Position numbers and translations under genes: made by a program | The notes under the pieces: model-generated | Told to the model about the DNA's origin: nothing | Seen by the model: the letters and a program-made list of their open reading frames with translations, nothing else | Databases searched by the model: none | Origin: Leptospirillum sp. | Lineage (GTDB): Bacteria; Nitrospirota; Leptospirillia; Leptospirillales; Leptospirillaceae | Length of the DNA: 64,000 nucleotides | Direction of reading: 5' to 3' | NCBI GenBank assembly: GCA_027315205.1 | Contig: DAHUYM010000004.1 | Coordinates: 40,814-104,813, forward strand | Part shown: positions 8,977-9,828 of the stretch, one piece after another | How positions within the stretch are numbered: the first letter of the stretch is position 1 | Layout of the letters: each line of letters opens with the position of its first letter

Positions 8977-9102
8977 GTGGATATCAAGAAAAAGGTGACG
9001 ATCGTTGTTGTCATTGTGGTCATTCTCGTTCCGACCCTCGTCATTTTGCTGAATGCCTACTTCGGTTTCACCCTCTATGACCGGATCGTCGGGGGACATT
9101 AG
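8977..9102 (+). CDS. Small single-span membrane peptide (41 residues)
   Basis: A GTG-started frame preceded by a G-rich stretch encodes 41 residues. The start is basic (MDIKKK), then comes a hydrophobic stretch of about 20 residues rich in Val, Ile and Leu, and a short tail ending in RIVGGH. The pattern is a single transmembrane helix, probably N-in. It is too short for family assignment. It lies 41 bases after greA in the same direction and ends just before two inverted repeats. Confidence is limited because coding statistics over 41 codons are weak. Confidence 0.5.
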   Translation: MDIKKKVTIVVVIVVILVPTLVILLNAYFGFTLYDRIVGGH

Positions 9103-9130
9103 CGAACCTGTTTCATTCGGAACAGGTTCG
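9103..9130 (+). repeat. 10-bp perfect inverted repeat after the small membrane ORF
   Basis: CGAACCTGTT (9103-9112) and AACAGGTTCG (9121-9130) pair perfectly around an eight-base loop, directly after the stop of the 41-residue ORF. There is no T-tract, so it is at best a weak or factor-dependent terminator, and it could instead be a protein site. Confidence 0.55.
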
Positions 9131-9131
9131 G

Positions 9132-9164
9132 CCACATTATGTGTCAAAATGACACATAATGTGG
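9132..9164 (+). promoter_or_regulatory. Perfect 15-bp palindrome, candidate activator site
   Basis: CCACATTATGTGTCA (9132-9146) is followed by AAA and its exact reverse complement (9150-9164). There is no T-tract and the arms are AT-rich, so a DNA-binding-protein site is likelier than a terminator. Its centre is about 100 bases upstream of the start predicted from the sigma-54 promoter at 9221, the usual place for an enhancer-binding-protein site. The inner GTC...GAC matches a loose GT-N7-AC core like that reported for NorR, but that core is too short to assign a regulator. Confidence 0.65.
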
Positions 9165-9220
9165 GGTCGTGAAACGTTAGATTCAGGAGGAAAGGTTGCA
9201 ATACCAGATCTTGTAATTCT

Positions 9221-9236
9221 TGGCATAAATATTGCA
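9221..9236 (+). promoter_or_regulatory. Sigma-54 (RpoN) promoter for zinc-ribbon/erpA operon
   Basis: TGGCAT-N5-TTGCA has the invariant GG (9222-9223) and GC (9234-9235) separated by exactly ten bases, as in -24/-12 promoters. The predicted transcription start is near 9247, 46 bases before the ATG of the zinc-ribbon gene. A sigma-54 activator gene elsewhere in the window (54113) shows the system exists in this genome. Confidence 0.7.
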
Positions 9237-9292
9237 TTATAACTGTGGCAAGAGGGATCCCAAGAGATCTCGACAAGGACAAGGAGGAGAGA

Positions 9293-9490
9293 ATGGACTG
9301 TCCGAGATGCCACAGTGAAATGATCGAAGAAGAATTCAGCGATTTAAAAGACGATACGGGTTTTTTGAATTTCAGGGGGTGGCGGTGCATTCTGTGCGGT
9401 GAGATCGTCGATTCGGTGATCTTGTCCAACCGAAAGAACCGTCCAGCTCCGCTCGTGGGCCGCAACAGGAAGATCATGGCCTATAGTTAA
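9293..9490 (+). CDS. Small zinc-ribbon protein, function unknown
   Basis: The 65-residue product has two CxxC pairs, CPRC near the N terminus and CILC about 30 residues later, separated by a segment with FRGWRC. This is a classic one-zinc ribbon. The ATG at 9293 has a perfect AAGGAGG site. A GTG at 9245 in the same frame lies ahead of the predicted transcript start and is rejected. I recall multicopy relatives of this type in Nitrospirota and deltaproteobacteria, none with a known role. It is 14 bases from erpA and shares its sigma-54 promoter, which suggests a link to iron-sulfur or metal homeostasis. Confidence 0.8.
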   Translation: MDCPRCHSEMIEEEFSDLKDDTGFLNFRGWRCILCGEIVDSVILSNRKNRPAPLVGRNRKIMAYS

Positions 9491-9504: not shown

Positions 9505-9828
9505 ATGATCACACTTTCGGAAAAAGCCATCGAGAAGGTGTCGGAATATCTGAAAGCCGAAAACAAGCCCGGCTACGGACTCCGCGTCTACGTCTCGGGT
9601 GGTGGGTGTCATGGTTTCCAGTACGGTATGGCCTTTGAGGAAGCTCCAGGCGATATGGATCAGGTGGTCGAGGAAGGTGGCGTCAAACTGTTTATCGACG
9701 CCCAGAGCTATCCACTTCTGGAAGGTGCCGAAGTCGACTACGTCGAGAATCTTTACGGATCCGGATTTGCCATCAAGAACCCCAATGCGAAGTCCAGCTG
9801 CGGGTGTGGAAGCTCTTTCTCCACCTAA
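9505..9828 (+). CDS. erpA: A-type iron-sulfur carrier (ErpA/IscA family)
   Basis: The 107-residue A-type carrier receives Fe-S clusters from a scaffold and delivers them to apoproteins. The three conserved cysteines are present, one in GGGCHGFQYG (about residue 35) and two in SSCGCGSSF near the C terminus. The sequence LRVYVSGGGCHGFQYGM is closer to ErpA than to IscA, but the subfamily is not certain. AGGAGGG precedes the ATG. It lies downstream of the zinc-ribbon gene under the sigma-54 promoter, so cluster insertion may be induced under a specific stress or nitrogen state. A terminator follows. Confidence 0.85.
   Translation: MITLSEKAIEKVSEYLKAENKPGYGLRVYVSGGGCHGFQYGMAFEEAPGDMDQVVEEGGVKLFIDAQSYPLLEGAEVDYVENLYGSGFAIKNPNAKSSCGCGSSFST

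Follow-up and report, generated by a model that had tools for sequence, protein, structure and literature searches.

In model bacteria, Fe-S biogenesis is for the most part under regulators of the IscR or SufR type, small winged-helix proteins that act on sigma-70 promoters. NifA is a bEBP with a Fis HTH that uses TGT/ACA half-sites, with two sites preceding a sigma-54 promoter, and DVU2106 (OrpR) is, reportedly from a 2021 paper, an Fe-S redox sensor. Judged from its published description, the closest known system to the locus described here appears to be the set of orp operons of Desulfovibrio vulgaris, which, in the available parts of the reports, are driven by DVU2106 with sigma-54 and palindromic sites (PMC3897727) and include the Mrp-type Fe-S protein MrpORP (PMC6345978). 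The available part of a regulome study describes bEBP motifs with TGT and ACA half-sites 9, 11 or 12 bp apart, with which the TGT-N11-ACA dyad of this locus can be compared (PMC4641369). A 2025 survey of sigma-54 regulons includes NifU among sigma-54-linked genes in Proteobacteria, and the main text, as available, contains no match to "Nitrospir-" or "Leptospirillum" (PMC12316311).

As far as the available description of the orp system extends, it has in common with the module described here a sigma-54 bEBP of the one-component kind, palindromic sites that precede -24/-12 promoters, and an Mrp/NBP35-type Fe-S protein among the targets; the module here differs in having a small zinc ribbon as its constant partner, with ErpA, IscU or Mrp as carriers. 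The proposed matching of Fe-S biogenesis to need is shared with IscR and SufR, whereas the regulator here would be an ATP-dependent sigma-54 activator. The architecture is of a kind already known, while its zinc-ribbon/ErpA/IscU version and the phylum-wide spread look new; no report of a zinc-ribbon/erpA sigma-54 module with its bEBP was found in the literature searched. The lineages concerned are iron-oxidizing and nitrite-oxidizing and depend heavily on Fe-S enzymes.

The following features were assigned in the window, which is the whole 64-kb stretch of DNA analyzed:

9109–9124, + strand: operator dyad 1, TGTTTCATTCGGAACA, 16 bp, centered near -130 from the predicted start
9132–9164, no strand assigned: interrupted palindrome, 33 nt, with 15-bp perfect arms and an AAA center
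9140–9156, + strand: operator dyad 2, TGTGTCAAAATGACACA, the core of the palindrome, 17 bp, centered near -99
9220–9236, + strand: sigma-54 (-24/-12) promoter, TTGGCATAAATATTGCA, with the GG-N10-GC arrangement
9293–9490, + strand: zinc-ribbon gene, 65 aa, CPRC...WRCILCGE
9505–9828, + strand: erpA, A-type Fe-S carrier, 107 aa, NF010147 and PF01521

The pairing of a zinc-ribbon gene with erpA, put forward in the original prediction from the DNA letters, is borne out at these positions, with ErpA passing the NCBIfam equivalog NF010147 (129 bits; cut-off 117). The zinc-ribbon ATG is directly preceded by a Shine-Dalgarno-like sequence (AAGGAGGAG). The zinc ribbon itself reaches no Pfam or NCBIfam cut-off, its structure model has a mean pLDDT of 66.5 with no PDB structure match better than E 0.18, and a PDB sequence search with the zinc ribbon and the PAS domain discussed below returned nothing useful. 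The -24/-12 promoter of the original prediction also stands: the element at 9220–9236 is near consensus, and all 18 family loci keep TGGCAY-N5-TTGC at -70 to -79 relative to the zinc-ribbon ATG. The family set comprised 21 genomes including the own genome, of which 20 gave a region match (G017 gave none) and 18 had enough upstream DNA; L018 and L019 were left out of the 18 since a contig end cuts their upstream region. The pattern YTGGCAY-N5-TTGCW has five exact matches in the 2.0-Mb genome, compared with two for a reversed control pattern, and RpoN is encoded in the same genome (206.6 bits).

The palindrome had been described as a perfect 33-base inverted repeat about 100 bases upstream of the promoter. 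The length and the 15-bp perfect arms (9132–9146 and 9150–9164) hold, with the 3-nt AAA center making the repeat an interrupted one; the distance holds for the center measured against the predicted start at ~9247, which is derived from the -12 position, whereas 57 bp separate the edge from the -24 GG. Among the perfect inverted repeats of the window with loops of 0–12, this one is the longest, and of 400 simulated 64-kb sequences (order-1 Markov) one reached a 15-bp arm (1/30 in an earlier run). The original prediction had proposed a search of relatives for the palindrome near the promoter and had named its absence there as evidence against the idea. The exact 33-mer is present in the own genome only and in none of the 17 family relatives with enough upstream DNA; what is kept is a shorter dyad of 16–17 bp in two copies, and the palindrome core recurs as a dyad in 18/18 family loci. 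The symmetric flanks of the 33-mer are particular to the own genome, and the function most likely resides in the core.

The dyads are of the type TGTTTCA-N3-TGAAACA, and the two in the window are 31 bp apart. All 18 family loci carry two, some of them weak; the second dyad in L009, L011 and L013 was matched by 12 to 26 of 100 shuffles. Twenty-five regions, all from other families, served to build a matrix, which started from a consensus read from relatives and was then refined. With this outside-family matrix, the two best sites are 29–31 bp apart in 18/18 family regions, compared with 74 of 3600 shuffles. Dyad 2 ranks second in the window, and dyad 1 ranks second with the 16-bp form of the matrix; rank 1 for both forms is a position inside carB. 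Dyad 1 reads TGT-N10-ACA, while dyad 2 and most sites of relatives read TGT-N11-ACA. A strict pattern had two matches in the own genome, one at this locus and the other within a dxs-like ORF, and so revealed no second target, a point against the activation proposed below. The paired position ~80–150 bp upstream, together with linkage to a bEBP gene in other families, marks the dyads as probable upstream activating sites. Dyad 1 had gone unmentioned in the original prediction; in the own genome it also has extended arms (9104–9130, CGAACCTGTT / AACAGGTTCG), as does dyad 2.

The own genome encodes ten strong sigma-54 activator domains and two weak matches. Some zinc-ribbon loci are preceded by a bEBP gene in the same orientation, and these led to the candidate, L035 (G000:C37:8398-9981), which lies outside the window, ~41 kb from the operon, flanked by a NUDIX-like gene and trpE. 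Of the own bEBPs examined, this PAS-AAA+-Fis protein matched the zinc-ribbon-linked bEBP best, with ~51% identity across 450 aa. Of 20 family relatives, 18 have an orthologue of L035, and the genomes of the remaining two are 81% and 66% complete. In one tree, a clade of 47 rows (support 100/99) unites the own bEBP with all correctly extracted zinc-ribbon-linked bEBPs, and the own paralogues that could be placed are outside it; L248 and L285 are also outside, because a neighboring response-regulator bEBP was picked by mistake. L242, L264 and L270, which had no neighbor scoring, and L272 were left out of the tree. The PAS domain, of which a structure model confirmed the PAS fold only, contains three cysteines that are invariant in 34/34 aligned rows, three of these being duplicate records.

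In other families, the bEBP gene mostly lies directly upstream of the zinc-ribbon gene, and the intergenic regions mostly show dyads or half-sites and a -24/-12 element, although in several of them the regexes used detected no dyad or promoter. Among the 38 clade rows from outside the family, the zinc ribbon is next in 26, ~3 kb on in 3 and absent in 9, two of these nine being contig ends. An alignment scan of named genomes located zinc-ribbon relatives at 80 loci, 74 of which entered the dyad/promoter survey; many Nitrospira homologues have neither dyads nor the promoter. Across 49 named genomes, the bEBP is present in 11 of 13 with dyads, where it scores at least 503 bits, and in 3 of 36 without; the contigs of the two dyad-bearing exceptions, L095 and L098, were seen by direct reading to start inside the bEBP 3' end. 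Counts such as these are not independent, owing to the relatedness of the genomes. L115, recorded as Nitrospinota, was rejected as evidence for a second phylum: it has the same place and score as G428 of the same phylum (family f18), in a scoring of the best four candidates per genome, and was counted within the phylum.

The identity of the genes carried along varies by lineage, but a predicted Fe-S theme mostly stays. In 29 zinc-ribbon-linked loci, ErpA was found in 11 (six also with IscU), Mrp together with Rieske (Mrp/ApbC type) in five, a 2-oxoacid:ferredoxin oxidoreductase in six and NuoF in three; the remainder comprised an uncharacterized cysteine-rich protein (2/29), another bEBP (1/29) and a contig end (1/29). 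Pfam searches on representatives confirmed Mrp (NUBPL type), Rieske, NifU_N (IscU), NuoF and 2Fe-2S ferredoxin. In Nitrospira family f10, a short gene and IscU lie between the bEBP and the zinc ribbon. Behind a deltaproteobacterial orthologue (G085) come three TGTTTCA boxes, then a -24/-12 promoter (TTGGCACCTATTTTGCT) and two genes, one of the dinitrogenase-cofactor type and the other Mrp. Departures are also seen: the genes downstream in L251 and L255 are a methyltransferase and others outside the Fe-S theme, those in L281 and L282 have no recognized function, and second bEBP copies in family f9 (L252–L254) lack the zinc ribbon.

Taken on this sequence evidence, the dyads at 9109–9124 and 9140–9156 are probably tandem upstream activating sites through which L035 drives the zinc ribbon and erpA. 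L035 would sit as dimers on the two dyads, which are spaced by three helical turns; the bound protein would then loop to the sigma-54 holoenzyme at 9220–9236 and remodel it, and promoter opening would lead to transcription of the two genes. Since the bEBP gene is ~41 kb from the operon in Leptospirillaceae, the link in this family rests on motif and orthology. The sigma-54 control of the two genes suggested in the original prediction is supported by conservation and by a specific candidate regulator, and the dedicated activator it had anticipated is probably L035, which is connected by orthology to linkage of dyads, promoter and zinc ribbon elsewhere. Its suggestion of a nitric oxide signal fares less well: L035 scores 347 bits against NorR NF003451 (cut-off 476), which excludes it from the NorR family and removes NO sensing by NorR, and it carries a cysteine PAS domain. 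Nitric oxide reaching a putative Fe-S centre of L035 is possible. Because of the PAS cysteines and the Fe-S cargo, Fe-S or redox status is the favored input, and its sensing by the three-cysteine PAS domain is plausible. The operon is best read as a sigma-54-dependent module for Fe-S/redox homeostasis that would match Fe-S carrier supply to demand. An A-type carrier (elsewhere IscU or Mrp) is tied by sequence to a sigma-54 promoter, a defined operator and a candidate activator, the uncharacterized zinc-ribbon family gains a regulatory context, and the operator and protein form a directly testable pair. More speculatively, and here we remain doubtful, the system might be a phylum-wide Nitrospirota switch, in which a cysteine-PAS bEBP bears a metal or Fe-S center, the zinc ribbon is the constant target and feeds back as anti-activator or metal donor, and the carriers (ErpA, IscU, Mrp) are swapped between lineages.

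The regulator that resembles this arrangement in its Fis-HTH bEBP, TGT/ACA half-sites and paired sites before a sigma-54 promoter is NifA, and the dyads might be bound by the GAF-type NifA homologue encoded on G000:C11. Dyad 1 fits TGT-N10-ACA, the NifA site, and NifA-like proteins occur in 13/13 family genomes searched, ~7 kb from the operon in several. Binding by NifA is nevertheless unlikely, as dyad 2 and most sites of relatives have the N11 spacing, other families have the motif adjacent to the PAS bEBP, the surroundings of the own nifA gene show no conspicuous dyads, and a full-length nifH-type match is absent from the own genome (best 31 bits over 39 positions). On the spacing, the missing nifH-type match and the lack of dyads near nifA, NifA was rejected as the main regulator. 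L035 differs from NifA in its N-terminal cysteine PAS domain in place of GAF, in the TGTTTCA-N3-TGAAACA core, in its score against TIGR01817 (401 bits, below the cut-off of 528.85) and in residing in a genome without a nitrogenase match. The NifA homologue itself (L033, G000:C11:89840-91399, outside the window) passes TIGR01817 with 561 bits, so that a NifA equivalog is present in a 99.93% complete genome without a full-length nifH-type match.

A palindromic operator by itself names no protein, and the site could instead belong to a common type of dimeric transcription factor, repressing or activating, FNR/CRP-like or of another kind, that has nothing to do with sigma-54; in G003 and G007, no sigma-54 promoter was found near a dyad that follows slt. 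We consider this improbable, given that dyads at about -99 and -130, three turns apart behind a conserved -24/-12 element and linked to bEBP genes, fit a bEBP enhancer. Strong dyads just 3' of slt were observed at L007:2718-2734 (TGTTTCATTTTGGAACA) and L009:822-838 (TGTTTCACAATGAAACA). An RNA hairpin, for example one that terminates transcription of the upstream greA, or a chance repeat would suit a palindrome that sits between the upstream genes and the operon and whose exact form is confined to one of the genomes searched, but is very improbable, because no T-run follows on either strand, on which ground the terminator was rejected, random sequences as long rarely match the arm, and the core is conserved as a dyad.

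Apart from the proposed L035 module, several minor observations were made. The interval between greA and the palindrome contains a GTG-started 41-aa ORF (8977–9102) whose product has a single hydrophobic helix (VDIKKKVTIVVVIVVILVPTLVILLNAYFGF...), and a related small ORF is present in 18/18 family loci. A deltaproteobacterial zinc-ribbon locus (L141) was rejected as an orthologous module since its adjoining bEBP is of the response-regulator type. In L197 and L198, a bEBP paralogue that lacks the PAS cysteines precedes a -24/-12 promoter with a rhodanese-like gene and another kind of small zinc ribbon behind it; this is a second predicted module of a bEBP with a zinc ribbon.
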